DNA of 64,000 nucleotides from Cobetia marina (lineage in GTDB: Bacteria > Pseudomonadota > Gammaproteobacteria > Pseudomonadales > Halomonadaceae). Made by a program: the position numbers and the translations under genes. The stretch is taken from positions 3,658,001 through 3,722,000 of the forward strand of contig NZ_CP017114.1 of the NCBI RefSeq assembly GCF_001720485.1. Direction: 5' to 3'. This document shows, piece after piece, positions 8,234 through 61,831 of the stretch. The notes beneath the pieces were generated by a model. The model was not told where the DNA came from, made no database searches, and saw nothing but the letters and a program-made list of their open reading frames with translations. The stretch's first letter is position 1, and each line of letters begins with the position of its first letter.

Positions 8234-8482
8234 CTCACCTCAAGAAAGAAGGTGTTTCGCATGCCTTTTCATCTCTACCGGCCACCACACTCACACCTCA
8301 AAGGAGGTGCTTCGCATGCCTTTTCATCTTCACTGGCTACCACACTCACACCTCAAAGGAGGTGTTTCGCATGCCTTTTTATCTTCTTTGGCTACCATCC
8401 TCACACCTCAAAGGAGGTGTTTCGCATGCCTTTTTATCTTCATTGGCTACCATCCTCACACCTCAAAGGAGGTGTTTCGCAT
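8234..8482. repeat. Five-copy 55-bp tandem repeat overlapping the fghA stop codon
   Basis: Units are exactly 55 bases apart: the GGTG anchor falls at 8251, 8306, 8361, 8416 and 8471. The three central units are nearly identical, the leftmost is degenerate and the rightmost is the authentic 3' end of fghA. Each unit contains the palindrome ACACCTC-AAAG-GAGGTGT, the plus-strand string AAAGGAGGTG six bases before an ATG, and the fghA stop codon on the minus strand. Because 55 is not a multiple of three, the plus strand is open through all three frames in turn. There are no unique spacers, so this is not a CRISPR array. Confidence 0.95.
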
Positions 8483-9329
8483 GGTAGGTCAGATGCTCAT
8501 CGATGAAGCTGGCCATGAAGAAGTAGCTGTGATCATAGCCGGGCTGGCGACGCAGGATCAGCGGGTGGTCCTGCTCGGCGCAGACCGCCTCCAGACGCTC
8601 CGGCTTGAGCTGCTCTTCCAGGAACTGGTCATTCTCGCCCTGCTCGACGAACAGCTCCTGACGCGCGGCACCGCTGTTGCCCGCCTGCTTGACCAGCTCG
8701 CAGGTATCCCACTGCGCCCACTGGGTGCGGTCATCGCCGAGATAGCCGCTGAAGGCCTTCTCGCCCCACGGGCAGGCCATCGGATTGGCGATCGGCGCGA
8801 AGGCGGAGACCGAGCGATAGCGCCCCGGATTCTTCAGCGCGCAGATCAGCGCGCCGTGGCCGCCCATGGAGTGACCGGAGATGGACTCGCGTTCGCCATC
8901 CACCGGGAAGTGACGCTTGACGAGCGCCGGCAACTCCTCGGTGACGTAGTCGTACATGCGGTAATGGCGCGCCCACGGCTCGCGGGTGGCATTGACGTAG
9001 AAGCCGGCACCGCTGCCGAAGTCATAGCTCTCGTCTTCGCCGGGCAGGTCCACGCCACGCGGGCTGGTGTCCGGGCAGATCAGGGCGATGCCCAGCTCGG
9101 CTGCCTTGCGCTGCGCGCCGGCCTTCTGCATGAAGTTCTCGTCAGTGCAGGTCAGCCCCGACAGCCACCACAGCATCGGCACCGGGCCCTGTTCGGCCTG
9201 CGGCGGCAGATAGATGGCGAACACCATGTCGCAATCCAGACTGCCGCTGCGGTGACGGTAACGCTTGAGCCAGCCACCATGCACCTTGTTGGCGCTGACC
9301 AGCTCGAGTTGTTCGGTCGCGGTCATCAT
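8463..9329 (-). CDS. fghA: S-formylglutathione hydrolase
   Basis: The 288-residue cytoplasmic esterase (alpha/beta hydrolase, esterase D family) hydrolyses S-formylglutathione to formate and glutathione, the second step of glutathione-dependent formaldehyde oxidation. The catalytic triad is visible: serine in SGHSMGGHGA near residue 151, aspartate in EQGENDQFLEEQ near 228, and histidine in GYDHSYFFM near 261. Family motifs LWWLSGLTCTDENFMQKAGAQ and PDTSPRGVDLPGE are intact. GGGAG precedes the tandem ATG start at 9329. It is the second gene after adhC, 130 bases apart, with a hairpin between them. The last codons and the stop form the right-most unit of the 55-bp array. Confidence 0.96.
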   Translation of the reverse strand: MMTATEQLELVSANKVHGGWLKRYRHRSGSLDCDMVFAIYLPPQAEQGPVPMLWWLSGLTCTDENFMQKAGAQRKAAELGIALICPDTSPRGVDLPGEDESYDFGSGAGFYVNATREPWARHYRMYDYVTEELPALVKRHFPVDGERESISGHSMGGHGALICALKNPGRYRSVSAFAPIANPMACPWGEKAFSGYLGDDRTQWAQWDTCELVKQAGNSGAARQELFVEQGENDQFLEEQLKPERLEAVCAEQDHPLILRRQPGYDHSYFFMASFIDEHLTYHAKHLL

Positions 9330-9358
9330 GCTCTCCCTTGTGATATCGCCTCATGAAG

Positions 9359-9382
9359 ACGGCGTCGGCAAGCCGACGCCGT
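9359..9382 (-). terminator. Hairpin between adhC and fghA
   Basis: A 10-bp perfect stem (ACGGCGTCGG/CCGACGCCGT) with loop CAAG lies in the intergenic spacer, followed leftward by GTCTTC without a full T tract. It may be a partial terminator or an RNA-stability element that tunes fghA relative to adhC. Confidence 0.4.
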
Positions 9383-9459
9383 TTCACGCTCCGAGCCCGC
9401 CCAGGCATCACGCTTGCCTGCCCGGCCCGGAGGCGTTTCAGCCAAAGATCGCTCGCGGA

Positions 9460-10728
<1,269 letters not shown>

Positions 10729-10772
10729 CTACGCAGTGACCTTGGCGGGATTAAGCCGTCAGCACTCAGATG

Positions 10773-10797
10773 ATTATTGTCACTCAACAACAATGAT
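10773..10797. promoter_or_regulatory. Inverted repeat in the adhC/lysR divergent region
   Basis: ATTATTGT (10773-10780) and ACAATGAT (10790-10797) form an inverted repeat with one mismatch and a 9-base spacer. It sits immediately before the LysR ribosome site and 204 bases from the adhC start. It is a candidate LysR autoregulatory site. Confidence 0.4.
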
Positions 10798-10808
10798 GAG
10801 GAGCGGGC

Positions 10809-15061: not shown

Positions 15062-16549
<1,488 letters not shown>

Positions 16550-16555: not shown

Positions 16556-16612
16556 ACGAACGACTCGAACAAGACAAGACCGGCACGACTGAACGACACG
16601 ACTGAACGACGG
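16556..16612. repeat. Short tandem duplication after hydA
   Basis: The 211-base spacer between hydA and preT begins with ACGAAC/ACGACT microrepeats, including the 13-base unit CGACTGAACGACA repeated with one change. No gene or terminator is apparent in the spacer. Confidence 0.5.
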
Positions 16613-16760
16613 CCTGGCAGCGCACCTGACGCGCTGCCGGTCCCGAAGCGCTGCCAATCAAGGCGTTGCCAAACAAGACGCTGCTAGCGCAAGACGATCT
16701 GACTCGCCTGCAAGACCAACAACAACGACCCCGCGCCTGAGCGCGGGCAGGAGCCACACC

Positions 16761-24317: not shown

Positions 24318-24359
24318 GCCTGTCTCTTCCTGAGACTTTCTCAAACCTCTGACACATGC

Positions 24360-24402
24360 AGCCCTGATATACGGAGCCCTGATACACGGAGCCCTGACAT
24401 GC
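24360..24402. repeat. Three-copy 15-bp tandem repeat downstream of narK
   Basis: Units AGCCCTGATATACGG, AGCCCTGATACACGG and AGCCCTGACATGC are adjacent and in the same orientation, just before the terminator stem. Confidence 0.8.
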
Positions 24403-24655: not shown

Positions 24656-24870
24656 GATGTCTCTCCTTGAATCATCGGTCGGGATAACGCCCCGGCCTGC
24701 ACACCAGTACAGACAACAGCGCGGGGATACACAGGACATGGAGCGGGTGTCGCGCGGTTTCAAGGGTGGCGCAACGCCGAGTTGCAAGGGGATGATCGAG
24801 TGACGAGGCACACCACAGGGCAAGCCCCTTCGAGGAGCCCGGCTCAGAGCGCGAATCTGCGCTCGAGCCA

Positions 24871-24896
24871 GAGGCCCAGGTCAGAGGCCCAGGTCA
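24871..24896. repeat. Perfect 13-bp tandem duplication on the GNAT stop codon
   Basis: GAGGCCCAGGTCA occurs twice in direct succession. On the minus strand each copy reads TGACCTGGGCCTC, and one of them supplies the stop codon of the GNAT gene (24881-24883). Confidence 0.9.
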
Positions 24897-25453
24897 GAGA
24901 AACCATGGTCGAAGAGCACCTCGCCTCCCAGCCCCGCCAGATAGTCCGGCACCAGCTCGATGGCCACGAAGGCGCCAGGCACATCCTCGTGATGGCAATA
25001 AAGGCCGTAATGGCGCGCCGGATGAAAGCCCAGATGTGCATAGAACTCGGCATGACCCGCCGCCACCACGGCGCCCGCTCCCAGCAGACGACAACGCTTG
25101 ACCGCCGAGATCACCAGCCGCTTGCCGATGCCATGACGCTGGTGCTGGGGCAACACCGCCAGAGGCGCCAATGCCATCAGCACGCGCCCCGGACAGCCGG
25201 AGAGTTCCACGCGCGAGGCCATCACATGCCCCAGCAGCCCTCCTTCGCCTTCACTGAGGTGACGCCCGCTTTCCGGGTCAGAGAAGCGCTCGGCCACCAG
25301 CGAGATCTGCGCCAGATCACTGCGACGCAGTCTGTCGCCCAGGCGAGCCTCCCGGTGGCCGGCAAACACGGATTCATGGATGCGGTAGATGCGCTCATGA
25401 TCGATGAGACGTTCTTCACGGATGCGAAGATTATCGGCGGGGTTGTCAGTCAT
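24881..25453 (-). CDS. GNAT-family N-acetyltransferase (YhbS-like)
   Basis: The 190-residue enzyme has the acetyl-CoA binding motif A region (LAPLAVLPQHQRHGIGKRLV, residues about 100-120) and a C-terminal motif B segment (HAEFYAHLGFHPARHYGL). These resemble YhbS-type acetyltransferases of unknown substrate. The ATG at 25453 directly follows a GTG codon that could also initiate; there is no strong ribosome site for either. The gene stands alone on the minus strand. Its stop codon lies inside a 13-bp tandem duplication. Confidence 0.85.
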   Translation of the reverse strand: MTDNPADNLRIREERLIDHERIYRIHESVFAGHREARLGDRLRRSDLAQISLVAERFSDPESGRHLSEGEGGLLGHVMASRVELSGCPGRVLMALAPLAVLPQHQRHGIGKRLVISAVKRCRLLGAGAVVAAGHAEFYAHLGFHPARHYGLYCHHEDVPGAFVAIELVPDYLAGLGGEVLFDHGFSDLGL

Positions 25454-27078: not shown

Positions 27079-27913
27079 GAGGACATTCCTTCAGTCGATG
27101 AACAGGCACGAGCCGAACAGGCATGCGTGCGGGCGCAGAGCATAACAGAGCCAGCGCTCGCTCGCCTGCACGCCTCCATCTGCGAATTCACATATCTGCC
27201 GGTTCCTGCCAGCGCGCCGGCCGCGTTCACGTTTGCCATCCTTTCCAACGACACGACAGCTGATCGACTGCTGGTTGTCAGTCCCTTCCTCGCACCAGTC
27301 GATAATCCCCTCGCATGAGGCAAACGATATCGCATTAATGGCAATGAATGATTTTCGTCATCAGCCGTTTTCAATCCTGATTCAGGTCATTTATTAATCC
27401 TGTCCGATTCACCAGAATACCCGTTGACGTTCCTGTCATTTCCCACGTCTTGCGCCACGCCACGAGTGATCGTGCGCGTGTGAGAATTGATTGTCATCGA
27501 TACCTATCGCCATGCCTCAAGCGTTGCATCAAGGGTGCGGACCTCAACGAAAAAGGGACGCACCGGCATCGAGTCTCGTCACTGATCATCGTCTGCATCA
27601 TCTGTGCAACACCCATGTCCCGTCATGAGAGCATCACCGCATCATCACGCCCATTACTCCGCTATCTTGTTGATTAAATTGATATCAATGAGAAATATCA
27701 ATGCCTTTTCATGAAGGCATGACAGCCCGAACACGCTCATACCCTCCGCGTGGGCCAGGGCCGACGACGCCAATGACGCCTTCACGAGCCAGCACAGACT
27801 GGCGCTGAATGGCCACGATCTTCTTGAGGAACAGGGGCTCCACTGGTCAGGAGAAACACCCCGTCATCAAGACAGTTTCAGGACGCAGCGAACCACAAAG
27901 GGAGCAGAACCTG
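27079..27913. other. 835-base intergenic region between dbpA and the flavoprotein gene
   Basis: No convincing gene is seen. The stretch from about 27300 to 27720 is AT-richer than its flanks and should contain both divergent promoters. Notable structures are the perfect palindrome ATTGATATCAAT at 27678-27689 and the stem ATGCCTT/AAGGCAT at 27701-27720. Short plus-strand frames here lack ribosome sites. Confidence 0.5.
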
Positions 27914-29443
27914 ATGAAGGATATTTCACGAATCACCGCCTACGGATGTGTCGTGGCCGGTGTTGGCCCAGCGGGCATGGGGTTTCTATTCAATGCCTTG
28001 AAAACCGGAAAACTGGCGCAACTCGCACGCCATGGTCTGCTGATACTGGATGCCGGAGGCATTCATCGGGATGCGCCCCTGGGGGCCGGACGGCTGGGCG
28101 AATATCGCATCACGGCCAACTCGGTGGGGGATGTCTTTCTCGATTGCCTGAGAGACCCGGCCCTCGCGGAAGTCTTCGCTCCGCTGGAAGGCGATCCGTG
28201 CCTGGAGAACATCCGCGCCCAGGCCTTAACCGCCCCGGCGCTCAGTGAAGTGGGCACCCTGCTGGAAGCGGCGTCCCGGCTGGTGCTGGAACACGCCACC
28301 CGCCTTGCCGGCGTGGAGCTGTGGTGCGGCACGAGTCTCGATGAGGTTGAGCGCATCGAGGATGACAATCTGCTGACGCTGACTCACACGCCGGAACACG
28401 CGTCTCGTCCGACACGGATTCGCACCTCCAACCTGGTGCTCAATCTCGGCGGCTATCAATGCCCGGAACACCTGACCCAGGACCTCTCGCGCCAGGGACT
28501 GTCCCTGTCACCGCGTGCGCGCATCTACAGCGGTGATGAACTGCTGCGCATGCCGGAAGGTCAGCTGCGCAGCCTCTTGCTGCCGCGCCTGCGGCGTGGT
28601 GGGCGTGTCTGCGTGGTGGGTGGCTCCCACAGCGCCTTCTCGATGCTGGATCTGCTCGCCAGCGCATTCCACAAGACGCGCATCGACGAGATCACCCTGC
28701 TCCACCGCTCGCCTGTCCGGCTGTTCTTCGAGAACGCCGAAGAGGCCAAGGCCGCGGGCTATTCCTATGATGCCGAGCGCGATGTCTGCCCCATCAGCGG
28801 ACGCATCAATCGCTCCGGCGGGCTGCGCTACCGTGCCCTGAGCATCGGCCAGCAAGTGCTTTCCAGCGGTCGGATAGCAGACTGCGACATGCAGGTCAGG
28901 CTCATCCAGACCGGCCCCGGCCCTCAGCAACGCCTGCTCGCGGCCAGCGAAGCACTGGCCGACGCGCCGGTAGTGGTGCAGTGCAACGGCTATCAGCCGA
29001 TTCTGCCGCGCCTGCTGGATGCGACGCGTCAGCCGCTGCCGCTCAGCCAGGTGAAGGGCGGACTGGATTCCGATGCCACCGGCAATCCCCGAGACCTCTC
29101 AGGCAACCTCCTTGAGGGCCTCTACCTGTTCGGACTCGGCGCCGGACTGGCGGCAGACCCCACCCTGGGGAGTGAAGCCGCCTTCGATGGCCGCATCTAC
29201 GGCGTCTGGCAATTCCACAACAACGCAAGCCTGCCAGCGCTGGAGACCATCCTCGCACGCCTGGAAACGCAGCATGTGGCAGCACCGGTGACGGACCCGC
29301 TGTCCGCCGCCACCCAGCTGGCCGAGCAGGCAGCGCCATCCTCTGGCGCACAACGCGTGAAGGAGGCCGAACGCGAGCTGACCACGGCGCTGAACACGCT
29401 GAGCGAGACTCTGTCCTCGCCACTGCGCTCCAGCATCGCCTGA
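27914..29443 (+). CDS. FAD/NAD(P)-binding oxidoreductase of unassigned substrate
   Basis: ATG 27914 follows AGGGAG by 9 bases and gives 509 residues; upstream in-frame codons look non-coding. The first Rossmann motif is VAGVGPAGMGFLF (residues 13-25) and a second lies mid-protein (VVGGSHSAFSMLDLL, about 235-250). This two-domain plan recalls flavin monooxygenases of the lysine/ornithine N-hydroxylase superfamily. The first glycine motif begins V-A-G-V-G rather than V-G-A-G. Later segments are LLHRSPVRLFFENAEEAKAAGYSY, VVQCNGYQPILP and YLFGLGAGLAADPTLG. There is no siderophore or other biosynthetic gene beside it. It stands alone after an 835-base non-coding region. I cannot name the substrate. 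Confidence 0.75.
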   Translation: MKDISRITAYGCVVAGVGPAGMGFLFNALKTGKLAQLARHGLLILDAGGIHRDAPLGAGRLGEYRITANSVGDVFLDCLRDPALAEVFAPLEGDPCLENIRAQALTAPALSEVGTLLEAASRLVLEHATRLAGVELWCGTSLDEVERIEDDNLLTLTHTPEHASRPTRIRTSNLVLNLGGYQCPEHLTQDLSRQGLSLSPRARIYSGDELLRMPEGQLRSLLLPRLRRGGRVCVVGGSHSAFSMLDLLASAFHKTRIDEITLLHRSPVRLFFENAEEAKAAGYSYDAERDVCPISGRINRSGGLRYRALSIGQQVLSSGRIADCDMQVRLIQTGPGPQQRLLAASEALADAPVVVQCNGYQPILPRLLDATRQPLPLSQVKGGLDSDATGNPRDLSGNLLEGLYLFGLGAGLAADPTLGSEAAFDGRIYGVWQFHNNASLPALETILARLETQHVAAPVTDPLSAATQLAEQAAPSSGAQRVKEAERELTTALNTLSETLSSPLRSSIA

Positions 29444-29492
29444 CCTGCATCGCCTGACATTCATCGACAAGGCATGCATTGACAAGGCATGA
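29433..29492. repeat. Tandem 14-15-bp repeats spanning the flavoprotein stop codon
   Basis: GCATCGCCTGACCT and GCATCGCCTGACAT are consecutive 14-base units, the first containing the stop codon. They run on into two related units built on CAT-TGACAAGGCATG (TCATCGACAAGGCATG and CATTGACAAGGCATGA). Confidence 0.8.
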
Positions 29493-31534: not shown

Positions 31535-31598
31535 GACGATGATCTCAGTAGAAACCCGCAGATCATCCATCGGTGAACGTAGTCCGTAAGACGCAAGA

Positions 31599-31634
31599 AA
31601 AAGCCCTCCCGGCGATGCCGGGAGGGCTTTTTTA
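31599..31634 (+). terminator. Strong Rho-independent terminator at the island edge
   Basis: A 15-bp stem (AAAAGCCCTCCCGGC with 31617-31631) has loop GAT and is followed by a run of T. Sequence to the right turns AT-rich immediately. Confidence 0.9.
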
Positions 31635-31747
31635 AAGCTTAAAGATTATATTCTAAACTCCACGAAATAATAAAAATCAATTCATACATATATAAACCCT
31701 AAACCTATCGAATAGCCAAGCTGGACAACCATCTTAAGAGATGTGAT

Positions 31748-33478
31748 CTATTCTAGCTGATCTAAACTATTCCAATGGATACAGTTGTGTGGTAATACTG
31801 CATTTTCTGCACCCACCAAGTAGTCCAACAATGACTTTACACGACTTCTAGCTTCCGGATCACTATTTATTCTAACTAAAGCATTGTAAGGCTTATCGCT
31901 TTTAACCTCTTTATTAAATATAGCTGTTTCGAAACAAGTTTTACAAGCAACAAGATTGACATTTTCGTTATTTTCTAGCAAATCACCTATAGTCCTATTC
32001 ATTCCCCATGCTGGATTATTTGCCCCACTGTTAGTTAACTTTTTATCCGAATCATGAAGTATAAAGAAAGATTTAGAAAACTGATTCAAAACCTTAGCTA
32101 CAGATGGAATAATCCCCTTACCTCTAGCTCTTATAATTTGCACATCACTATATTCATCTGGATACATCTCTTTAATTATCGAAAATGCAGTATATTCTGT
32201 GTCTCCCTCAACAATCACTTGACGACCACCAAAGAAAAACTCATGAACATAAGGGTCACATATATTCATTAGTTTCAAATTTCTCTTATCATCTTCATCT
32301 AAACTAGCTCTTTCAGGACGATACAATGTAGTGCTTTTTACATCACTACGATCATCCCTAAAAACTCTAATTATTGTAGTATTGTCTTTCGACAAATCAA
32401 TAAACAAAGGTGAGTGAGAAGTAATCATTACTTGCCAGTTACCACTTTCTGGAAGCTCATATAGTACCCGCCTCGCTTCACGTATTGCCGAGGGGTGCAG
32501 ACAAATTTCTGGCTCATCAAGTAGTAAAACGTGAGGCCGCGAGCCTTTTTTATCTTGTGATTCAGATAAATATTTTAAAATTGCCCAAAGCAGAGTTTTT
32601 CTAGCCCCGCTCCCTTGATGCTCTATGGAAGAGAAATAGCCACCTTCTGGCCCCATCAACAAGTTAGTATTAGTTTTAAATGGTTGATAAGCCTTATCCA
32701 GATCTGCTTCAGGATTTGCATCAAATTTTATTTTATGATTAGGAAATAGTTGGCTAAGGTAGCTTGAAACCTTTCCTTCTATAACCTCAATTTCGTCATT
32801 AGTAGCTTCTACAACCTTTACTTGAAGATCTTTTATATTCTCAAGTACGATCTCATAATCAGAAAACTCTTGCTCAGGATCTGTTCGTATACTTGATAAC
32901 TTCTCTTTTAAAAGACCAGCAATAAGCTTAGTTATTTCTGTAGCTTGCTTATCTGGTGTAGCAAAAGCATCTATCCTGTGCGGCCATGGCCTTCTAGAGT
33001 TAGCAACATTTGGCGCCCCCCATGGCACTTGATCGTCCCAACTATTTTTTATAACATCATAACCTTGTCTTTTTGGATCTTTATTAGGATTATCCCAAGT
33101 CCATTTCTCACGAATCAGCCACTCATTCTCAGCAGTTCTTTCAATCCACCTACTACCTGGGGCGTCATTAAAAACTATAGTATGCAACTCAATAGTAGGA
33201 AGTGCATCAGCATTAACCTGTCCATTAGGAAAATCTTCAATAGTTAACCTCCCTTCTTTAGAACCGTGGGACATAACTGTTTCATAAGCACGCAATATAC
33301 TGCTTTTACCCACATTATTTGGACCTACGAGGACAACTATATCATCAAGCTCAATCTCAACTTCATTACTTCCAATAGATCTGAAATTTTTTATTATTAG
33401 CTTATGCAATCTAGGGCGTGATGCTCCTTCATCTAACACCAATGCAACTGTATCGCCTAGTTTATTCTTAGCAACCAT
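31748..33478 (-). CDS. OLD-family ATP-dependent endonuclease (ABC ATPase plus TOPRIM), solitary
   Basis: ATG 33478 follows GGAGAG and gives 576 residues; a GTG 21 bases earlier is possible. The N-terminal ABC/SMC-type ATPase has Walker A (VGPNNVGKSS, residues 51-60), a signature-like QGSGARKTLLWA (288-299), Walker B (HVLLLDEPEICLHPSA, about 316-331) and the H-loop ITSHSPLFID. The C-terminal TOPRIM nuclease domain shows VIVEGDTEYTAF (about 421-432) and the metal-binding ILHDSDKK (about 473-480). OLD proteins are phage-exclusion or repair nucleases. No UvrD-like helicase neighbour exists, so this is class 1 OLD rather than Gabija GajA. Base composition is far more AT-rich than all flanking core genes, with AT-ending codons, indicating recent acquisition. 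Confidence 0.88.
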   Translation of the reverse strand: MVAKNKLGDTVALVLDEGASRPRLHKLIIKNFRSIGSNEVEIELDDIVVLVGPNNVGKSSILRAYETVMSHGSKEGRLTIEDFPNGQVNADALPTIELHTIVFNDAPGSRWIERTAENEWLIREKWTWDNPNKDPKRQGYDVIKNSWDDQVPWGAPNVANSRRPWPHRIDAFATPDKQATEITKLIAGLLKEKLSSIRTDPEQEFSDYEIVLENIKDLQVKVVEATNDEIEVIEGKVSSYLSQLFPNHKIKFDANPEADLDKAYQPFKTNTNLLMGPEGGYFSSIEHQGSGARKTLLWAILKYLSESQDKKGSRPHVLLLDEPEICLHPSAIREARRVLYELPESGNWQVMITSHSPLFIDLSKDNTTIIRVFRDDRSDVKSTTLYRPERASLDEDDKRNLKLMNICDPYVHEFFFGGRQVIVEGDTEYTAFSIIKEMYPDEYSDVQIIRARGKGIIPSVAKVLNQFSKSFFILHDSDKKLTNSGANNPAWGMNRTIGDLLENNENVNLVACKTCFETAIFNKEVKSDKPYNALVRINSDPEARSRVKSLLDYLVGAENAVLPHNCIHWNSLDQLE

Positions 33479-33858
33479 TTGATTACTCTCCAAAGTCACT
33501 ATTGATAAAGACCATAAAAGAAAACAACTAACGAGGATTCAACTTTAATCATTAATACCCTCATCGTATTTATAGACGACTCAAATGATCGCAGAGCACT
33601 TAGCTATTAATTTAATCAAATCTGACCAATTCTCTCGAATCTCCTTTACTTCTCAACGTTAATAAGCTAGCGATAAGCCTAAGGAAATCAAGATTTCGGG
33701 ATGTTAACTGAATTACTGCTTCTATATTAACAACTTAGCTTATTATCCAAAAATCAATCTCAGCAGGTTTAATTTTCAATGGCAGGTATAAACTAGGAGG
33801 TAACTGAGAGAAGGTCATTGAAGGTTAGACTCAGCTACTTCGCCAACAATCTGTACAA
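33479..33858. other. AT-rich upstream region of the OLD gene
   Basis: About 380 AT-rich bases without a recognisable gene. It should contain the OLD promoter on the minus strand. The composition returns to normal exactly where the truncated pseudouridine-synthase copy begins. Confidence 0.45.
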
Positions 33859-34080
33859 TAGCCCTTTCTTCTCGCCTCCGTGATGCCTTCCATGTCCATT
33901 CCCGCCCGCCCCTCAAAGCTGAGCCTGCCTCAGGCCAATCCCGGTGTGACGACGGTGCTGGAGTATCTGCTGCTCAAGTTCCCGACGATTGCCGAGTCAC
34001 GTTGGCGCGAGCGCATGGCCGCGGGCAAGCATCGCGATGAGGACATGCAGGTCATCGCGATGGGGCAAGTAGTTATCTAA
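33859..34080 (+). pseudogene. Truncated duplicate of the RluA-family pseudouridine synthase 5' end
   Basis: From GCCCTTTCTTCTCGCC onward this stretch matches the start of the gene at 35720-35920, including its untranslated leader, at roughly 80-85% identity by eye. It encodes MPSMSIPARPSKLSLPQANP against MPSMSISARPSKLSLPQINP in the intact gene. Similarity continues through RWRERMAAGK and fades after HREDE/HRDED. The frame then stops at 34080 without the catalytic domain, so it is a remnant. It marks the right-hand edge of the AT-rich island. The divergence suggests the copy was imported from a relative with the island, or is an old duplication, not a recent local one. Confidence 0.85.
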
Positions 34081-37976: not shown

Positions 37977-38575
37977 GCCGGCGCGTTTCCTGGCGCACCG
38001 CCCTGCTCCCCCTTGCCGTGATCTCCCTCGGCCATGGGGCCAGCGGGGCGGGAGGCGGCCTCATCGAGACGGCTCACGCCCACGCCCTGCCCGGCAGCGT
38101 GCTTACATTCGAGCAGCAACCGCAGCACACGCTGCACCTCACGCTCCAGTTCCCGCGCGAAGACCTGCTGATCGCCGCGCCGGCACTGGCAGCCCTTGGT
38201 GAGCAGACACCAGGCCAGCCCCTGCCGAAGCCACTGGTGGATCAAATCGGCGACTACCTCAGTCACCACCTCGCACTCTCCGAGGATGGCGACACGCTAC
38301 CGATGACGCTCACCGAAGCGCATCTCGAATCGACCTATCAACCACAGCTCGGTGACTACGTGCTGGTCATCACCGAATGGAACGTCAAGACCGAAAAGCC
38401 CGAACCGGACTCCCTGCTGCTGAAATACGACGCCGTGATGCACGAAGTCCGCAACCACCGCGCCGATGTCTACTGGCAGACTCCCGACGGTGCCACCCGG
38501 CCACTGGCCGGTTTCGGCTTCTTCCACTCCGCCCACGGCGTCCGGCTGAACCTGCAGAAAGCCAGGCAGGAGTGA
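37973..38575 (+). CDS. Secreted protein of unknown function, partner of the DUF3500 protein
   Basis: The 200-residue protein starts at an ATGA overlap with the DUF3500 gene and carries an N-terminal signal-like segment (RRVSWRTALLPLAVISLGHGASG). The mature part is mostly beta-prone (TLHLTLQFPREDLLIAAP; LGDYVLVITEWNV; GATRPLAGFGFFHSAHG). It contains an Asp/Glu-rich middle but no catalytic motif I recognise. Tight coupling suggests an exported two-protein unit. It ends at the edge of the second AT-rich stretch. Confidence 0.75.
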   Translation: MSRRVSWRTALLPLAVISLGHGASGAGGGLIETAHAHALPGSVLTFEQQPQHTLHLTLQFPREDLLIAAPALAALGEQTPGQPLPKPLVDQIGDYLSHHLALSEDGDTLPMTLTEAHLESTYQPQLGDYVLVITEWNVKTEKPEPDSLLLKYDAVMHEVRNHRADVYWQTPDGATRPLAGFGFFHSAHGVRLNLQKARQE

Positions 38576-38766
38576 GTTAATTGGAATATGCTGACCAAAA
38601 CAAATTAAACAATAAGAAACTAGTATCACACCAATCATACCTATCACTACGAAACTCACACAGAGGATCCTCTACACGGAGTCATTACTCTTCAAAGACA
38701 AGCTTCAACTATGCTTTGAAGAGCATTCGTGCTATGTCAACAGAAACTTATCAAAACAAGACACAA
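38576..38766. other. AT-rich stretch after the DUF3500 operon
   Basis: About 190 bases at the left edge of the second AT-rich segment. A TTG-started 97-codon plus frame (38581-38874) crosses it and overlaps the nuclease gene antisense; I regard it as spurious. Confidence 0.4.
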
Positions 38767-39834
38767 TCAGCCCTTCTTTCCAAAAAAATTAGAAATATGA
38801 TAAAAAACCCCTTTTTTAGATTCTGCCTCAGAGATTATTCTTTCTTTTTCAGACAAAGTCTTCTTATATTCTAAAATAATTAAATTCAACTCATTAATTT
38901 CTTTATCTTTAGAATATATACAATCTTTTATTCGTGATATAGATTCATTTTTATTTGATAGCAGTCTTTTTTGTTCTGTAATCAGAGAACTTAATTCAGC
39001 CACCTCCTTTGACTTAAAGACTTCTCTAGAATGCGACTCTGCAATTACTTTATCTTTATTTATAAGTTCGTCTTTTATGAGTCTTAATTTATCCAACCAA
39101 AGTTTCTCTTCTTTAAAATGATATTCAGAAGACACAGGATCAGAAAGAATTTTACCGAAAACTTGCTTCCCGAAAACATGCACTAGATAATCGTAGTATT
39201 TTTCATAATCCTCGGGAGTATGGGGAGGGGTATTAATCTTTTTCTCTATAGACATGCTGGAAATATTTACTTCAATTATAGGTATACAGTGGCTTTTAAA
39301 ATCTTGGATTTTTTCGGGCTCACATGGATGTGTATGATTAACCTCTATAGCAATTTTCCCACCCCATTTTAGCGCGAGAGCTTCGGGTTTTTTGAAGAAA
39401 CAAATAAGATCAGGATAGTAGTATTTAAATTTACCTCTATTAGTTAATTGTATCTTTAAATCATCTTGACGGATTTCAGAAACTTCTATTTCATATGCCT
39501 TACCACCACACTTAAAGTTAATCCTATCCATCTCAGATAAGACTTGTATAGCAATAGTGTGTGATATTGAATCACCATCGTTTTTATTTTCATCAATACT
39601 ATTATTTGATTTCGACTTATATCTATAAAATCCTTTTTGCACAGGTATTACCTGCGATCGATTATTACGGTCTTTTTGCGTACTCATAAATTTAATCTTA
39701 TTGAATTCATGAATTTTTTCATCACGAAGCTTCAACGACTCCCATATATAAAATATCTTCAATGGGTGCTTATCGCCTTTAATGTAATCTCCGGAATCAT
39801 TAATCGCATAAGCCCAAATCTTTTTATTTGCCAA
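38767..39834 (-). CDS. Putative PD-(D/E)XK (CoiA-like) nuclease with coiled-coil C-terminus
   Basis: The 355-residue protein probably starts at TTG 39834, because AGAGGGG lies 6-12 bases upstream and an in-frame stop precedes it. A core at about residues 138-190 reads YYYPDLICFF, then GGKIAIEVNHTHP, then CIPIIEVNIS. This spacing of aspartate (142), glutamate (164) and a following polar residue resembles CoiA-like and other PD-(D/E)XK nucleases. Residues 250-345 are a Lys/Glu-rich coiled coil (KDKEINELNLIILEYKKTLS). The N-terminal 100 residues match nothing I know. The coding sequence is strongly AT-rich, unlike guaBA next door, indicating horizontal transfer. An anti-phage role is plausible but unproven. 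Confidence 0.6.
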   Translation of the reverse strand: MANKKIWAYAINDSGDYIKGDKHPLKIFYIWESLKLRDEKIHEFNKIKFMSTQKDRNNRSQVIPVQKGFYRYKSKSNNSIDENKNDGDSISHTIAIQVLSEMDRINFKCGGKAYEIEVSEIRQDDLKIQLTNRGKFKYYYPDLICFFKKPEALALKWGGKIAIEVNHTHPCEPEKIQDFKSHCIPIIEVNISSMSIEKKINTPPHTPEDYEKYYDYLVHVFGKQVFGKILSDPVSSEYHFKEEKLWLDKLRLIKDELINKDKVIAESHSREVFKSKEVAELSSLITEQKRLLSNKNESISRIKDCIYSKDKEINELNLIILEYKKTLSEKERIISEAESKKGVFYHISNFFGKKG

Positions 39835-40147
39835 ATCACTGCCCCTCTACTAAATGTCATTATCAATCATTTATACAAATAAAACCAAAGCAACAACTCA
39901 TATCAGGAAGAATACAAAACACATATTCATGTCCCGCCACATTAAATCATCCTTTAATTCTAATATATATTTCCTCTTGGATAGCTATTGACAGTAGCGT
40001 AGATAATAGGTGAAAAGTAGCTATATATAAAATATATCAATACCCTAATAGTATTAACATGTACGATGACAGTCAATTTTTCAGAAATTCGACCTCCACT
40101 GCATAATTCTGTTTCTTCTATAAATATGTGTAATGCACAACCCACAA
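39835..40147. other. AT-rich upstream region of the putative nuclease
   Basis: About 310 AT-rich bases without a recognisable gene. It should contain the nuclease promoter. Composition returns to normal at the guaA terminator. Confidence 0.45.
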
Positions 40148-40184
40148 AAAAAGCCCTTCCGGCCAATGGCCAGAAGGGCTTTTT
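40148..40184. terminator. Terminator after guaA
   Basis: A 17-bp stem with one mismatch (40148-40164 with 40168-40184) has A and T runs on both sides. It terminates leftward guaBA transcription and separates it from the AT-rich insert. Confidence 0.85.
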
Positions 40185-40270
40185 GCTTGCTGCGTTCTCG
40201 TCTCGATCGGTTCTAGAGACCGTCTCGACAGAGCGCTACGTCAGCTCAGCGAGGGGGGATCGTCAGGCGA

Positions 40271-51750: not shown

Positions 51751-51871
51751 TCTTTCGCGTGACTTCGGACGCGCTGGATTGCTTTTGACCTTACGCCTTT
51801 CGCGCAGCTTCGGGCGCGCTGGATCGCTTTTGACCTTACGCCTTTCGCGCAGCTTCGGGCGCGCTGGATCA
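51751..51871. repeat. 45-bp tandem repeat (2.7 copies) starting at the glrR stop codon
   Basis: The anchor CTTTCGCG recurs at 51752, 51797 and 51842, exactly 45 bases apart. Two units are nearly identical and the left one is diverged. On the minus strand the first unit begins within the glrR stop codon (TTTTGATCCAGCGCGCCCG). Since 45 is a multiple of three, a 15-residue peptide repeat is open in the same frame. Each unit holds a small CGCGC/GCGCG stem. Confidence 0.9.
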
Positions 51872-53236
51872 AAAGTCAGGCGGTCCCTGCTCGGCGCCCG
51901 GCTTGAAGGCGCCCGGCTCCAGATCATGACGTCCCAGCAGCTTGTAGAAATCGGTGCGGTTGCGCCCGGCGATCCGCGCGGCCTGGGTCACGTTGCCTTC
52001 GGTGATCTTGAGCACCTTGATCAGATAGCTGCGCTCGAAACCGGCACGCGCCTCGGAGAAGGACGGCAAGGCGTTCTCTTCTGCGGCCAGCGCCTGGGAG
52101 ACCAGCGCTTCCGGAATCATCGAGGAGCTGGTGAGGGCGACACACTGCTCGACCACGTTGACCAGCTGACGCACGTTGCCCGGCCAGGCACTGGAGGCCA
52201 GCAGATTGAGCGCTTCCGGCGAGAAGCCCTTCACGAACGGCTTGTGGCGGGCAGCCGCCTGGCTGATCAGGTACTTGGCCAGCAGCGGCACATCCTCGGC
52301 ACGCTCGCGCAGGGCGGGCAGCTTGAGATTGACCACGTTGAGGCGGTAGTAGAGATCTTCGCGGAAGTCGCCGTCATGCATCGCCTTGTCGAGGTTGCGG
52401 TGCGTGGCGGAGATGATGCGCACATCGATGGGCACTGACGTCGTGGAGCCCAGCGGGCGGATCTGACGCTCCTGCAGCGCACGCAGCAGCTTGACCTGCA
52501 ACGCCAGCGGCATGTCGCCGATCTCATCGAGGAACAGGGTGCCGCCATCCGCCGCCTGGAACAGGCCCTGGTGCGCGCTGACCGCACCGGTGAAGGAGCC
52601 CTTGGCGTGACCGAACAGCTCGCTTTCCAGCAGTTGCTCCGGCAGCGCGCCACAGTTGATGGCGACGAAGGGACGCGAGGCACGCGGGCTGGCGTTGTGG
52701 ATGGCCTTGGCCATCAGCTCCTTGCCGGAGCCGGACGGGCCGGTGACCAGCACGCTGACATCGGAAGCCGCGACCATGCGTGCCTGCTCGAGAATCTGCT
52801 CCATCTGCGGGGAACGCGTGATGATGCCGGCACGCCAGGCATCGTCACCCTCCTTTACGGGCGGCGCCTGGGCCAGCGCCTCGTCGATGGCCGCGAACAG
52901 CTCATCCTTGTCGACGGGCTTGGTCAGGAAGCTGAACACGCCCTGACGAGTGGCACTGACGGCATCCGGGATCGAGCCATGCGCCGTGAGCAGGATGACC
53001 GGCATGCCCGGCTGACGCTTCTGCAGCTCACCGAACAGCGCCATGCCATCCATCTCGTCCATGCGCAGGTCAGACAGCACCAGGTCAGGACGCGCCGCCT
53101 CCAGACGGCTGAGCGCCTCACGGCCGCTACTGGCGGTGGTGACCTTGAAGCCACGGCTTTCGAGACGCATGCCGAGCAGCTTGAGCAGACTTGCATCGTC
53201 ATCCACGAGCAGAATATGCGCTTGAGCGTATTTCAC
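51869..53236 (-). CDS. glrR: Sigma-54-dependent response regulator GlrR (QseF)
   Basis: GTG 53236 follows AAGGAGAG and gives 455 residues; upstream codons are unsupported. The receiver domain ([29 protein letters not shown] with the phospho-acceptor; [10 protein letters not shown]) is followed by the AAA+ sigma-54 activator core. The core shows Walker [16 protein letters not shown], the GAFTGA-equivalent [26 protein letters not shown] and [15 protein letters not shown] Fis-type helix-turn-helix closes it ([21 protein letters not shown]). It acts downstream of GlrK in envelope-stress control; rpoE is its known target in enteric bacteria. Its stop codon opens a 45-bp tandem array. Confidence 0.95.
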
Positions 53237-55501: not shown

Positions 55502-56434
55502 CGAATCACGTCTTCCAAGGATACCAGAGTTCGCCAGCGCCCATCGCGGTTGCCAGTTCGTTAATCAATATGATTCTGATTTAATTCATCCCCGCTCGAC
55601 GACAGAAACCGCGCCCGGGCAGGTGTCGTGGATGATTCACTTGACCCATCCTCGTGAAACGCACAAAAAGAGGGCCGGCAAGAGCCGGCCCAAGTACGCA
55701 GGGAACTGAAGGGTCAGTCATCACGACGAATGCCTGTTACCTGGAGAGCAGACCTCCATCGTGATTGCTGGGCCTGACAGGTGGTCTGCCTGTCGCTGGC
55801 CCGGGAGTCGCCAGTGCCACCTGGTGGTCGTTCCAGGTCAGTTGACACTCGCCTCGGACAGGGTCCGAGCTCCCTATCGGATACATCACAGGGGGGCGAT
55901 GCATCGCAATGCTTGCGGCGCTCGCCGGGCACTTCCCGGCGCTCACCTGAATTCCGGGGATGGCGGTGACGGATCAAGCATCACCGCATCCAGTATCGGG
56001 CATCCATGCCCGGGCATCCTTGCCCTAAAGATACTTTCCATGCCCTCTGGGGGCCGTACCTGTCTCATCGCAACCTGAAGTCACACATCGCGTGGAGCAG
56101 ACGCTTGGCCTGTCAGCGATCACGGAGCGCACAGGGTAGTGAGTACCGTCATCGCTGGAAGGCCGGAGAGAATGTCCATTTTCATGGGCACTCCCTCGTG
56201 CTCAACATGACTATTGCCAACGCCGTGCCAATAACCGCAAAACACATTCAAAAACAATGACTTGCAAAGATACAAAAACCGGCATCGGCGTGGATTCCCA
56301 CGCACGAGGCGTGAAACGATGAAATACATGTCCTTTTCGTCGCAAAATGCCAACAGTTATCGTTGGTATCCGATTTTCTCCTTCCATATCAATCAATTGA
56401 AACGTCTCCTTTGCAAGACATCGCGCCACTCACT
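55502..56434. other. Long region without a confident gene
   Basis: About 930 bases between glrK and the argA 3' region. Candidate frames on both strands (such as a minus frame at 55737-55946) have no ribosome site and unusual Pro/Arg-rich composition. The only clear signal is a minus-strand terminator at 55672-55691, implying a leftward transcript of unknown origin. The right part (56200-56420) is AT-richer. Confidence 0.5.
55666..55691 (-). terminator. Orphan minus-strand Rho-independent terminator
   Basis: A perfect 8-bp stem (GGGCCGGC/GCCGGCCC) with loop AAGA is followed leftward by CTCTTTTTG. No annotated minus-strand gene ends just before it, so it may close a small RNA or small-protein transcript. 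Confidence 0.65.
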
Positions 56435-56529
56435 GATCCAGAAGTGCGACATCGATCCAGAAGCGCGGCATTGATCCAGAAGCGCGGCATCGATCAAGAA
56501 TTGCGACATCGAGCCAGAAGCGCGGCATC
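56435..56529. repeat. Five-copy 19-bp tandem repeat
   Basis: Units of the form GATCCAGAAGCGCGGCATC begin at 56435, 56454, 56473, 56492 and 56511, exactly 19 bases apart, with a few substitutions each. The array lies just beyond the argA terminator hairpin. There are no spacers. Confidence 0.93.
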
Positions 56530-58090: not shown

Positions 58091-58120
58091 AGGCGACCCG
58101 AAGGTCGCCTCTCTTTTTTT
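58091..58120. terminator. Terminator between pitA and argA
   Basis: An 8-bp stem (AGGCGACC/GGTCGCCT) has tetraloop CGAA and is followed on the plus strand by eight T residues. Leftward, the A run precedes the stem and TTTC follows, so it can end pitA transcription as well. Confidence 0.7.
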
Positions 58121-58121
58121 T

Positions 58122-58202
58122 CAAAAACGTTTTTTCAAAAACGTTTTTCAAGTGCGTCTTGCCGATACATCTTGCCGATGCGTCTTGCCGATGCATCTTG
58201 CG
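58122..58202. repeat. Tandem repeats downstream of pitA
   Basis: Two copies of a TCAAAAACGTTTTT block (58122-58149) are followed by 3.5 copies of a 13-base unit TCTTGCCGATGCA, starting at 58157, 58170, 58183 and 58196. Together they fill most of the space between the pitA stop and the terminator. Confidence 0.85.
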
Positions 58203-58269: not shown

Positions 58270-59553
58270 TTAGCCGAACATGCCCTTGAACATGAAGAAG
58301 AACAGGATCGACAGGATCGCGCCGGCCGGCAGAGTGATCAGCCAGGACATCACGATGGTGCCGATCACGCGCAGGTTGAGCGCTGCCATGCCGCGTGCCA
58401 GACCTACCCCCAGCACCGCACCGACGAGGGTGTGGGTGGTGGAGATCGGCAGGCCGGTGCCGGAGGCCAGCACCACGGTGGAGGCCGCCGCCAGGGTGGC
58501 CGCGAAGCCACGAGACGGGGTCAGCTCGGTGATGCCGGTACCGACGGTGGCGATGACGCGGCGACCATAGGTGACCAGGCCGACGACGATACCGCCGCCA
58601 CCCAGCACCAGTACCCACCAGGGCATGCTGGCCTTGGCGCCGATCTGACCGGCGGAATCGACGACACTGATGATGGCTGCCAGCGGACCGACCGCGTTGG
58701 CCACGTCGTTGGAGCCGTGGGCGAAGGCCATGGCACAGGCGGTGAACATCATCAGCAGGCCGAAGACCTTCTCGACGCCGCTGAAGTCGAAATCATCACC
58801 GGTGGCGCGATTCTTCTCCTTGAGGCGAGAACGCGCGACCTTGCGCTCCATCAGCACGCCGATCCCCATCACGATGGCACCGATGACGACGGCCAGCAGC
58901 AGGCTGGACTCGAAGCTCAGGTGCAGCCCGACATGCTTGAGGCCCTTGACCATGGTCACCATCGAGATGATGAAGCCGACCAGGAACATGTACATCGGGA
59001 CATAGCGCTTGGCGGCCGCGAACGGGTCGTCATTGTCGAAGATCAGCGTCTGCACGGACTTGAACAGCACGAAGGCGATGGAGCCCGCCAGCAGCGGCGA
59101 GACCAGCCAGGAGGCCGCGATCTGACCGACCTTGGGCCACTCGACCGCATCCACGCCGAGACCCGCCGCCGCGAAGCCGACGATGGCACCGACGATGGAG
59201 TGGGTCGTGGAGACCGGCCAGCCCTTCATGGACGCGATCAGCAGCCAGATACCGGCGGCCAGCAGTGATGCCAGCATGCCGTAGACCAGGAACTGCGGAT
59301 TCTGGATCAGCAGTGACGGGTCGATGATGCCCTTGCGGATGGTATCGGTGACTTCACCACCAGCCAGCCAGGCACCGAGGAATTCGAAGATCACGGCGAT
59401 GACGATCGCCTGCTTGATGGTAATGGCCTTGGAACCAACCGAGGTACCCATGGCATTGGCGACATCGTTCGCGCCTACACCCCACGCCATGAAGAAACCG
59501 AATACGCAGGCAAGGATGACGAGCACATCGCCGTATTGAGCAATGATGGACAT
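58270..59553 (-). CDS. pitA: Inorganic phosphate transporter, PiT family
   Basis: The 427-residue protein has about 10 membrane helices and the duplicated PiT signature, GANDVANAMGTSVGSKAIT near residue 27 and GSNDVANAVGPLAAI near 285. A cytoplasmic loop lies between the halves (MERKVARSRLKEKNRATGDDF). It imports phosphate, probably as a metal-phosphate complex, with protons or sodium. It is preceded by a DUF47 gene 41 bases upstream in the same operon. Short 13-bp repeats follow it. Confidence 0.95.
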   Translation of the reverse strand: MSIIAQYGDVLVILACVFGFFMAWGVGANDVANAMGTSVGSKAITIKQAIVIAVIFEFLGAWLAGGEVTDTIRKGIIDPSLLIQNPQFLVYGMLASLLAAGIWLLIASMKGWPVSTTHSIVGAIVGFAAAGLGVDAVEWPKVGQIAASWLVSPLLAGSIAFVLFKSVQTLIFDNDDPFAAAKRYVPMYMFLVGFIISMVTMVKGLKHVGLHLSFESSLLLAVVIGAIVMGIGVLMERKVARSRLKEKNRATGDDFDFSGVEKVFGLLMMFTACAMAFAHGSNDVANAVGPLAAIISVVDSAGQIGAKASMPWWVLVLGGGGIVVGLVTYGRRVIATVGTGITELTPSRGFAATLAAASTVVLASGTGLPISTTHTLVGAVLGVGLARGMAALNLRVIGTIVMSWLITLPAGAILSILFFFMFKGMFG

Positions 59554-59594
59554 TAGGGAACTCTTGAGCAGATGGCAGGACGTCCTGACAGCGC

Positions 59595-60275
59595 TTAGCG
59601 CGCCATCAGGATCTGCAGTCGGGTACCGACCTTTTCAGCTTGATCGGCGACATCGCCGACCCAGTCGATAATCTTGTAGAGGAAGATCACGTCGACCGGT
59701 GGCAGAGCGGCTTCCAGCGAGAACAGGGTCTGGCGGATCGCGATCTGCTGTTCGTCGGACTGCTTCTCGAGCTCATGCAGCTCATTGATCAGCTTGTCGA
59801 CCAGCTCGCTCATGTTGCGCCCGAAGCCGGACTCGACAAGATCTTCCAGCTCGCCCAGCGCACGGCGCGCCTGGCAGACCGATTCGACCGCAGTCTTCAG
59901 ATACTCACGCATGGCGGGCACCAGCGCGGTGGGTATCTGCATGTGGCGACCCAGCATGATGCCGGCGATATCCTTGGTGACGTTCGCGATGGAATCCTGG
60001 ACATGGATCAGCTCGAGAAGGTCGGAACGGGATACCGGCAGGAACAGCGAATTGGGCAGATTGAGACGCAGCTGCGTCTTCAGTTCGTCCGCTTCACGCT
60101 CCAGCTTGCTGATGGTCTGACGAATGCTGGCCGCCTGATCCCAATCACCCTGTTCGCAGGCGTCGAAGAAGGTCAGCAAGTGCTGGGCACAGTCGTCTGT
60201 CTTGATGATGTGGGTGTGCAGCGCCTTGAAAGGCGAGCGCCCGAACATCGAAGAGAAAGGGTTGGTCGTTACCAT
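59595..60275 (-). CDS. DUF47 (PhoU-like) accessory protein of the PiT transporter
   Basis: ATG 60275 (MVTTNPFSSMFGRSPFKALH) gives 226 residues; the frame extends upstream without a ribosome site. The protein is all-helical, with PhoU-like heptads and metal-binding acidic/His motifs (DACEQGDWDQAA; KLEREADELKTQLRLNLPNSLFLP; LIHVQDSIANVTKDIAG; VGDVADQAEKVGTRL). TIGR00153/DUF47 proteins pair with PiT transporters and are thought to modulate them. It is the first gene of the two-gene operon with pitA. Confidence 0.93.
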   Translation of the reverse strand: MVTTNPFSSMFGRSPFKALHTHIIKTDDCAQHLLTFFDACEQGDWDQAASIRQTISKLEREADELKTQLRLNLPNSLFLPVSRSDLLELIHVQDSIANVTKDIAGIMLGRHMQIPTALVPAMREYLKTAVESVCQARRALGELEDLVESGFGRNMSELVDKLINELHELEKQSDEQQIAIRQTLFSLEAALPPVDVIFLYKIIDWVGDVADQAEKVGTRLQILMAR

Positions 60276-60513
60276 AGTGGCCGTCGGCGTTAAGGATTGA
60301 CGCGCGGAGTGTAGCAAAGCCTTTGTGACGATCACATAACTTTCATCGTAACGACACGATACCGCCATGCTGTTGTACTTCACGCAACATCAGCGGCAGT
60401 CGGGGGAACTCGAAGGATTCCAGAGGAGAGATTGTCATGTAGCGACAGGACGCGGGGTCGCTGACTGATTACATTGTTCATAATATAACCAAGGAGTTGG
60501 CGGCAGGCAATTC
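60276..60513. other. DUF47 upstream region
   Basis: About 240 bases without a gene between the DUF47 start and the Pho-box repeats. It should hold the DUF47-pitA promoter. No specific boxes were assigned. Confidence 0.35.
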
Positions 60514-60557
60514 ATGTCACACAAATGTCACGATACTGTCATATCACTGTGATTCTG
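60514..60557 (+). promoter_or_regulatory. Pho box: four 11-bp-phased PhoB direct repeats
   Basis: ATGTCACACAA, ATGTCACGATA, CTGTCATATCA and CTGTGATTCTG are consecutive 11-base units whose TGTCA cores start at 60515, 60526, 60537 and 60548. This matches the PhoB consensus of CTGTCAT repeats spaced 11 bases. It points rightward, toward the CYTH gene 198 bases downstream, and lies 239 bases from the divergent DUF47 start. Confidence 0.7.
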
Positions 60558-60754
60558 CTGACGGATCACCTTCCGTGGGAAGGCTGGCGACACGCTCCGC
60601 GCTTGCCTTGGCAAGGGACAGGCGCGAGCATGAAGCCGCCGGGGGCTGCCTGTCCCGGGATCTCGGACAGGCCGCCAGCGTCCTCGTATCGCTGTCGTCA
60701 TCCATGCCCGGCCATCTTCATTCTTCATCTTCTCGTACAGGGAGTGCCGTCGTC

Positions 60755-61762
60755 ATGGCGCAGGAAATCGAACTCAAGCTGGCGCTGACCCACAGCGGCC
60801 TCGGACGCACGGCGATTCTGGAACGTCTTGCGGACATCGCGGAACTGGCTGGCACCACGCCCCGTCGTCGCTGGCTGGCCAATACCTATTTCGACACGCC
60901 TGAGCATGCACTGGAACGCGCCAAGATGGCATTGCGCCTGCGCCGCAGTGGAGAGGATGCCGACAGTCCGGGCCCCTTGCGCCAGACCCTCAAGACCAGT
61001 GGCGAAAGCCATGGCGGCCTGCATTCGCGCGGCGAGTGGGAATGGGCGCTGCCCGACGGCCAGACAGGCCTCGATCTCGGTGGCCTGCGCGGCCTTCCCC
61101 CTCTGCAGGCGCTTGAGGAAGGTCCGCGTGAGCACCTGCTCGGCGCCCTCGCCCCTACCTTCAGCACGGATTTCGAACGTCATGCCTGGCAGCTGGAACT
61201 GACGGTGACGCAGGATGGCCAGACGGCGGGTGTCGGCGTCGAGATGGCGCTGGATCTCGGCCACGTGAAGGCAGCAGGTCGGGAGACGCACATCCGCGAG
61301 ATCGAACTGGAACTCACTGGCGGTGACGACCTGAGCGCCGAGCAGCGCGAAGGGGTGCTGTGGGCGCTGGCGGAATCCCTGGCCAGCCGACTGGCCCTGC
61401 GCCCGGCAGATGCCAGCAAGGCACGCCGCGGTGCCGCACTCAGAGATGGCGAATGGCACGAGAAGACGCTGGATACCACCGACACGAATGCCCTGCTCGC
61501 CGCGGCCATCGATGCCCTGGATGCACATGCCGACCGCCAGCAGCAAGATGACATGCGCTGGCACGATCACGCCCTGGCCGCCTTCTCGGCCCTGGCCTCG
61601 CGCCTGGCCGCCAGTCAGCATCCCGGTCATGTCCATGCGGTGGCGCTGACGGAGGCGCTGAGCGAATCCCGTGAGCAGGGCACGTCAGACAGCTGGATGA
61701 CAGCGGCCTTCGGTCAGCACAGCCTGTCGCTGCTGGCGGCATTGCGCAGCCGAGGCCAGTGA
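60755..61762 (+). CDS. CYTH-domain inorganic triphosphatase (YgiF-like)
   Basis: ATG 60755 (MAQEIELKLAL) gives 335 residues; the upstream open stretch spans the Pho box and is not coding. The N-terminal CYTH domain (residues 1-200) has the defining E-x-E-x-K motif EIELKL and further tunnel residues in NTYFDTPEHAL, MALRLRRSG, LRQTLKTSG and HIREIELELTGG. The C-terminal half is helical and His-bearing (DDMRWHDHALAAFSALASRLA), a reduced CHAD-like region. Such enzymes hydrolyse inorganic triphosphate or thiamine triphosphate. A Pho box upstream suggests induction by phosphate starvation. Confidence 0.88.
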   Translation: MAQEIELKLALTHSGLGRTAILERLADIAELAGTTPRRRWLANTYFDTPEHALERAKMALRLRRSGEDADSPGPLRQTLKTSGESHGGLHSRGEWEWALPDGQTGLDLGGLRGLPPLQALEEGPREHLLGALAPTFSTDFERHAWQLELTVTQDGQTAGVGVEMALDLGHVKAAGRETHIREIELELTGGDDLSAEQREGVLWALAESLASRLALRPADASKARRGAALRDGEWHEKTLDTTDTNALLAAAIDALDAHADRQQQDDMRWHDHALAAFSALASRLAASQHPGHVHAVALTEALSESREQGTSDSWMTAAFGQHSLSLLAALRSRGQ

Positions 61763-61831
61763 GGCAGCTCATTAAAAGCTCAGTGAGACAGCTCATCGAG
61801 AAAGCTCGTTGAGACAGCTCATTGAGAGACC
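61757..61831. repeat. Imperfect 24-26-bp repeat spanning the CYTH stop codon
   Basis: AGTGAGGCAGCTCATT, AGTGAGACAGCTCATC and GTTGAGACAGCTCATT begin at about 61758, 61782 and 61808. The first contains the gene's own stop codon and the copies repeat it. Confidence 0.8.

Follow-up and report, generated by a model that had tools for sequence, protein, structure and literature searches.

The stretch analysed here, referred to below as the window, comprises 64,000 nucleotides of the Cobetia marina genome (bases 3658001-3722000 of a single contig of 4,176,400 bases). Five short tandem arrays in the window lie at the stop codons of five genes. These arrays had been reported from the letters alone (the sequence-only reading), and all five were recovered in the places it had given, both with Tandem Repeats Finder (TRF) and by direct reading. 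The arrays are built of head-to-tail units of about 10-60 bp (TRF) and in this respect fit the general class of minisatellites or variable-number tandem repeats (VNTRs). In bacteria, such tandem loci sit in spacers and vary in copy number from one relative to another. The genes and arrays concerned are the following.

8463..9329, - strand: esterase gene, fghA-like (PF00756 Pfam match)
8245..8483, - strand: fghA-end array, 55-bp unit, the first copy being the last codons and stop of the esterase gene
24881..25453, - strand: GNAT acetyltransferase gene (Pfam)
24869..24899, - strand: GNAT-end array, 13 bp x 2.4, 100% matches (TRF)
29433..29466, + strand: array at the stop of gene 27914-29443, 14 bp x 2.4, 90% matches
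29458..29491, + strand: second array, directly after the preceding one, 15 bp x 2.3
51869..53236, - strand: sigma-54 response regulator gene, glrR-like (Pfam: response regulator with sigma-54 domain)
51752..51870, - strand: glrR-end array, 45 bp x 2.6, overlapping just two bases of the stop
60755..61762, + strand: CYTH-domain gene (Pfam), from its called start; reading frame open from 60497
61757..61823, + strand: CYTH-end array, 26 bp x 2.7, 81% matches, also readable as 13 bp x 5.4

The five copies of 55 bp claimed for the esterase locus were found by direct reading, counting the end of the gene itself and a last, worn copy (TRF, 4.3 copies). The gene is presumably fghA, Pfam backing its assignment as an esterase only. 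The perfect 13-bp repeat at the GNAT gene and the 45-bp units at glrR were likewise as described. At the gene starting at 27914 the 14-bp units stood and the name flavoprotein did not, since the open reading frame (ORF) 27809-29443 had no Pfam match at E 1e-3. Four of the five stop arrays were imperfect (81-93% matches, TRF). In four of the five fghA units, AAAGGAGGTG is followed by six bases and then ATG on the + strand, which amounts to a tandemly repeated start with a strong ribosome site; by eye, the units at this locus in the related Cobetia genome G002 are without this motif. At 61745-61762, the CYTH gene runs three codons beyond the stop position of its relatives, and its own stop is the TGA with which the array begins.

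In total, 14 spacer arrays (TRF score 50+) were present in the window, of which five covered a stop and none a start. Random placement predicted 0.7 stop-covering arrays when any spacer was allowed, or 1.4 within the same spacer. The remaining nine arrays missed the stop and lay outside the original observation. As the window had itself suggested the idea, the independent test used 20-kb stretches spaced evenly over the rest of the genome (80 in all, approximately 1.6 Mb). Genes were predicted with a home-made caller, a periodic Markov model for which 687 long ORFs from this sample served as the training set and with which start positions are uncertain. Arrays were taken from TRF (period 10+, score 50+) if they touched a spacer, and the null model placed them at random with at most one unit within a gene; two further arrays with more than 1.5 units inside a gene were excluded.

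Outside the window, 21 of 114 arrays lay over a stop, compared to 7.8 expected (9.5 if each array was kept in its own spacer), and a single array lay over a start, compared to 8.2 expected (6.7 in its own spacer). With a score cut-off of 60, stops were covered by 17 of 77 arrays and starts by none. The proposal that position is the common feature, with the last codons and stop copied downstream, thus held beyond the window, as did the enrichment at stops and the avoidance of starts. When 100 nt were kept clear of starts, the number of stop-covering arrays was 19, against 7.3 expected. Array coverage reached 0.050 of bases at 30-40 nt past stops, within a broad peak at 20-50 nt, and was only 0.002 in the first 10 nt upstream of starts. 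Most arrays (93/114) were off any stop. Convergent spacers had 0.91 arrays per kb, codirectional spacers 0.36 and divergent spacers 0.35. For replication orientation, leading/lagging counts were 9/12 for stop-covering arrays, 24/29 for arrays within 40 nt and 542/422 for the background, and no significant bias was evident from these counts by eye.

A side observation concerned position on the chromosome. Spacer arrays were denser in the terminus half (59 in 88.4 kb) than in the origin half (28 in 86.8 kb) for sample L105-L184 with spacers up to 600 bp and score 50 (Spearman p 0.02), with p ranging from 0.02 to 0.37 across the six settings tried. Coding duplications were without this trend (7 in the terminus half and 12 in the origin half).

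The unit size was narrow. Perfect duplications of at least 10 bp in the spacers of this genome had a mode of 14 bp (12 bp, 6; 13 bp, 7; 14 bp, 12; 15 bp, 5; 16 bp, 5), and none were found in the same spacers after shuffling. In the congeners the commonest perfect spacer duplication was 15 bp (6 of 18, range 10-21 bp), these being partly shared by descent. Inside genes, 19 perfect duplications of at least 11 bp were present in 1.30 Mb (12 bp, 8; 15 bp, 9; 18 bp, 1; 57 bp, 1). The unit was a multiple of three in all 19 of these, compared to 18 of 52 outside genes (Fisher 2e-7), which indicates that genes are struck too and that the reading frame acts as a filter. The in-frame duplications leaned towards the C-terminus, with 7 of 16 lying in the final 12%, a cut that was chosen post hoc and a count in which two came from one array. 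As a gauge of microhomology, the 38 perfect two-copy duplications had a mean extension of 3.6 against 0.75 expected, many of them being within worn arrays. Two coding repeats were also seen in the sample: a 57-bp in-frame unit in roughly three copies within a predicted 849-codon gene (L107:9098-9278), and a long Glu-Gln repeat made of 12-bp units inside a gene (L112:10091-10185).

Stop-covering arrays resembled their own gene end (mean local score 18.7 for 21 arrays, compared to 9.8 when gene ends were taken at random), a likeness that is partly a consequence of how the arrays were picked. Arrays starting past the stop had no likeness to the gene end. For only 5 of 114 arrays did the 1.6-Mb sample contain a similar stretch at another place, two of these being tRNA-cluster repeats, and 2 of 21 stop-covering arrays were alike at 75%. 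One dispersed mobile repeat family of the REP or MIRU kind was rejected on the first of these counts, in agreement with the earlier view that the five arrays are not one family. Mycobacterial MIRU also lie at gene ends and form one dispersed family, whereas nearly every Cobetia locus has its own unit. An earlier spacer-against-spacer search had found some shared stretch in 42 of 928 spacers. Stretches of about 33-54 bp with 75-92% identity were common to several spacers (L123, L166, L181, L119, L172 and others), the matches listed covering 25 of the 42 spacers; they are perhaps a small dispersed repeat.

The distribution of arrays was compared across genomes as the number of arrays (score 50+) per kb of spacer. 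The density was 0.41/kb in this genome and 0.26-0.91/kb in five other Cobetia, where it refers to the region orthologous to the window only and some arrays are shared by descent. One other genus of the family, G015, had 0.45/kb (9 arrays in 20.0 kb) with a commonest period of 14, and two of its nine arrays, a small sample, were at stops. The 12 other family genera pooled had 5 arrays in 166 kb, with 0-0.14/kb in single genera; several of these rest on less than 15 kb of spacer, and G008, G010, G012 and G016 on 1.4-7.1 kb. In G014, with just 30 genes called in 80 kb, and in other lower-GC genomes, the Cobetia-trained caller fits poorly, so that spacer lengths are inflated and densities understated. 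Escherichia coli K-12 had 3 arrays in 47 kb of spacer. Perfect duplications of at least 11 bp were found neither inside nor outside genes in E. coli (0.30 Mb) and four other genera (0.32 Mb), and a further eight genera had two in genes and two outside.

Candidate repair differences were searched in 19 genomes. Ku-based end joining was rejected as the source, as Ku (PF02735) was found in G006 and G018 and in none of the six Cobetia or G015. No arrays of score 50+ were seen in the two Ku-bearing genomes (14.6 and 9.7 kb of spacer, respectively). Exonuclease I (PF08411), the PolA 5' nuclease domain (PF02739) and MutS (PF01624) were each present in 19/19 genomes, so that loss of any one of them was rejected. 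A difference in the number of Y-family polymerases was also rejected, as PF00817 had 1-3 matches in 19/19 with no evident link to arrays.

Comparison of orthologous stops was descriptive only, with one genome per species. At the fghA locus, approximately two copies were counted by eye in G001, G004 and G005, and one in G003; G002 had an array of 56 bp x 2.6 (TRF) matching its own gene end. The GNAT stop carried the 13-bp array here, compared to an unrelated 23-bp array in G005 and G004. For the gene ending at 29443, no array was found at the best match (67-72% amino-acid identity) in four relatives. Just past the glrR stop, the unit was 45 bp here, 45 bp x 3.6 in G005 and 36 bp x 2.9 in G002. 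The CYTH-end array was absent in five relatives, and was thus present in this genome alone among six. For the gene ending at 38575, the orthologue in G004 had one 15-bp unit with stop more than its counterparts in G001 and G005, in which a worn pair could already be seen. A 19-bp stop-covering array was present at the orthologue of 24317 in G003 only. Between G001 and G004, the two closest species (4.5% divergence), 6 of 13 insertions or deletions (indels) of at least 6 bp in aligned spacers corresponded to one tandem unit of 11-23 bp, and all six were longer in G004.

The explanation we consider probable is a lineage-specific tendency to short tandem duplication which is filtered by selection, with stops as a permissive edge. 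It starts from what was observed directly, namely the position of the arrays, their unit sizes, the frame filter, the restriction within the genomes sampled and arrays confined to single lineages. Under this explanation, short head-to-tail duplications, mostly of 12-16 bp, would be made throughout the Cobetia genome, and would then grow and decay as arrays. Selection would purge out-of-frame copies in genes, together with copies in promoter and ribosome-site regions. For a unit straddling a stop, the first copy would stay as the intact gene end, leaving the protein unchanged, and the 3' flank would tolerate the insert. Arrays would therefore gather at or just past stops, with the last codons copied downstream. 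We infer that selection, rather than local mutation, is behind most of the positional bias. Flap retention and staggered-nick fill-in are candidate unit-making steps.

Several observations weigh against this explanation. When both the 100 nt upstream of starts and spacers above 400 bp were excluded, 17 stop-covering arrays remained, compared to 9.2 expected, a number reached in 16 of 2000 random placements. Start avoidance hence explains only a part, and a stop excess of approximately 1.8-fold is left. In convergent spacers alone the stop excess was weak (9 compared to 4.9-6.2), and a second coverage peak of 0.050, at 150-160 nt past stops, is not accounted for. The C-terminal lean of the in-frame duplications fits tolerance and a 3'-end mutational bias alike. 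The share of tandem-unit indels was low in the other pairs: 7/41 for G001-G005, 3/39 for G004-G005, 2/114 and 6/125 for this genome with G001 and G005, respectively, and 1/73 for G002-G003. The five repair-gene families showed no difference matching the restriction of the arrays, other repair genes being unsearched. Finally, the CYTH locus was surveyed in 80 named genomes for arrays of score 60+ whose unit was not divisible by three. Cobetia had 1 array in 14 kb, compared to 2 in 54 kb in Chromohalobacter; Halomonas borealis and Bisbaumannia had none in 6.8 kb each, and the rest had 3 in 444 kb. The Chromohalobacter arrays mean that the border of the lineage is not sharp at this locus.

A bolder version can be offered only tentatively: an uncommon DNA-handling activity in Cobetia and one other genus of the family may produce 12-16-bp tandem duplications for which homology is hardly or not required, and more of them at gene 3' ends, a mutational signature that is rare in the sister genera sampled. 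If such a 3'-acting activity exists, stop codons and C-termini would evolve via repeated copying of their own last codons.

Rather unlikely, in our judgement, is a process in which duplication is linked to the termination of transcription or to collision between replication and transcription, and which would favour gene 3' ends; the sequence-only reading had raised a replication- or termination-linked origin. The residual stop excess, the coverage peak at 20-50 nt past the stop and the C-terminal lean are what it would predict, whereas the equal unit sizes inside genes, the presence of arrays in divergent spacers too (28 in 79 kb), leading/lagging counts near the background and arrays that start past the stop without a trace of the gene end argue against it. 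A termination-linked mutational bias may still have a part in the 1.8-fold excess, but a tie of the process to stops is not supported, as most arrays lie elsewhere and duplications of the same size occur in genes.

That arrays are kept by selection for back-up stop codons or for RNA structure at the 3' end, a second suggestion of that reading, is improbable. Stop triplets on the gene strand were more frequent in stop-near arrays (0.063 per base) than in array-free flanks (0.029), and for arrays 20-59 nt past the stop gene-strand TGA was at 0.043, compared to 0.025 (19 arrays). A next stop within 60 nt was also commoner at arrays, but in all three frames (0.67 compared to 0.44 in frame, 0.56 to 0.43, and 0.62 to 0.50), as copying of a stop would yield without selection, and in-frame back-up stops were rejected for this reason. 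Against dinucleotide shuffles, the arrays folded more stably (z -1.33, n=39) than array-free windows (z -0.50, n=200), but when the control consisted of shuffled units in an unchanged head-to-tail arrangement, mean z was 0.00 in the stop-covering group (n=21) and 0.14 in the other arrays within 20 nt (n=18). RNA structure was rejected because there was no fold excess over arrays of shuffled units. Moreover, at orthologous stops the units differ or are missing.

More improbable still is a reading of the arrays as footprints left by a mobile element that duplicated about 14 bp of its target and was later excised. The narrow unit size would suit such footprints, as would the 16 clean two-copy duplications, 10 of which had an extension of 0-1 bp (82% expected if homology is unneeded); on the other side, so few arrays resemble another stretch of the sample, and arrays of 5-7 copies would require a further process. 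Chance, given the intergenic repeat density, is hardly credible and was rejected with the 80 independent stretches, both by the placement nulls and by dinucleotide-shuffled spacers, which gave 1.2 arrays (mean of 5) compared to 106 real ones.

The nearest precedent found is the tandem repeats of the Borg archaeal elements. Their units are described as nearly all unique per genome, recent and independently formed, perfect and A-rich, with such repeats rare in the host genome; they are intergenic and genic, divisible by three in genes, and the first unit may sit in a gene end (PMC9879509). The Cobetia arrays are alike in their locus-specific, independently formed units, in occurring both in spacers and in genes, in the first unit in the gene end and in the divisibility by three (19/19 in genes, 18/52 outside). 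They differ in lying on a bacterial chromosome (the window being part of a 4.18-Mb single contig) rather than on an extrachromosomal element, and in being short and often worn, with a unit of about 14 bp and a measured stop enrichment and start depletion. The TAACTGA direct repeats of Beggiatoaceae, a different kind, are numerous in intergenic regions, some overlapping stop codons, and consist of one fixed heptamer lying mostly just upstream of starts (PMC4679880). Cobetia shares intergenic direct repeats, some over stops, but its units are unrelated to each other and starts are avoided. Among the matches listed from open-licence literature on tandem repeats in Cobetia or Halomonadaceae and on bacterial stop-codon repeats, no report of the stop-linked pattern was found.

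What began as a local oddity becomes a mutational signature that can be measured for a genus and that combines a favoured unit size with a clear filter by frame, stop and start. As the sister genera are mostly without this signature, the cause of short bacterial tandem duplication could be tested by comparing Cobetia with close genera. The arrays may also serve as strain-typing loci.

The other spacer arrays listed in the window were as follows.

3976..4044: 14 bp x 5.2, 18 nt past the stop at 4063 (- strand) (TRF)
16584..16610: 13 bp x 2.1, off any stop (TRF)
16648..16684: 15 bp x 2.5 (TRF)
24349..24397: 15 bp x 3.3 (TRF)
55997..56025: 14 bp x 2.1 (TRF)
56435..56529: 19 bp x 5.0 (TRF)
58116..58148: 14 bp x 2.4 (TRF and direct reading)
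58153..58201: 13 bp x 3.8 (TRF)

Counterparts of the array at 3976-4044 were present in G001, G004 and G005. A known structured RNA family was rejected, as Rfam gave no match in the window at gathering scores. In two segments, 31535-33891 and 38576-40270, the trained model called no gene, despite an ORF of 583 amino acids at 31748-33499 (- strand), and these segments are possibly acquired DNA.

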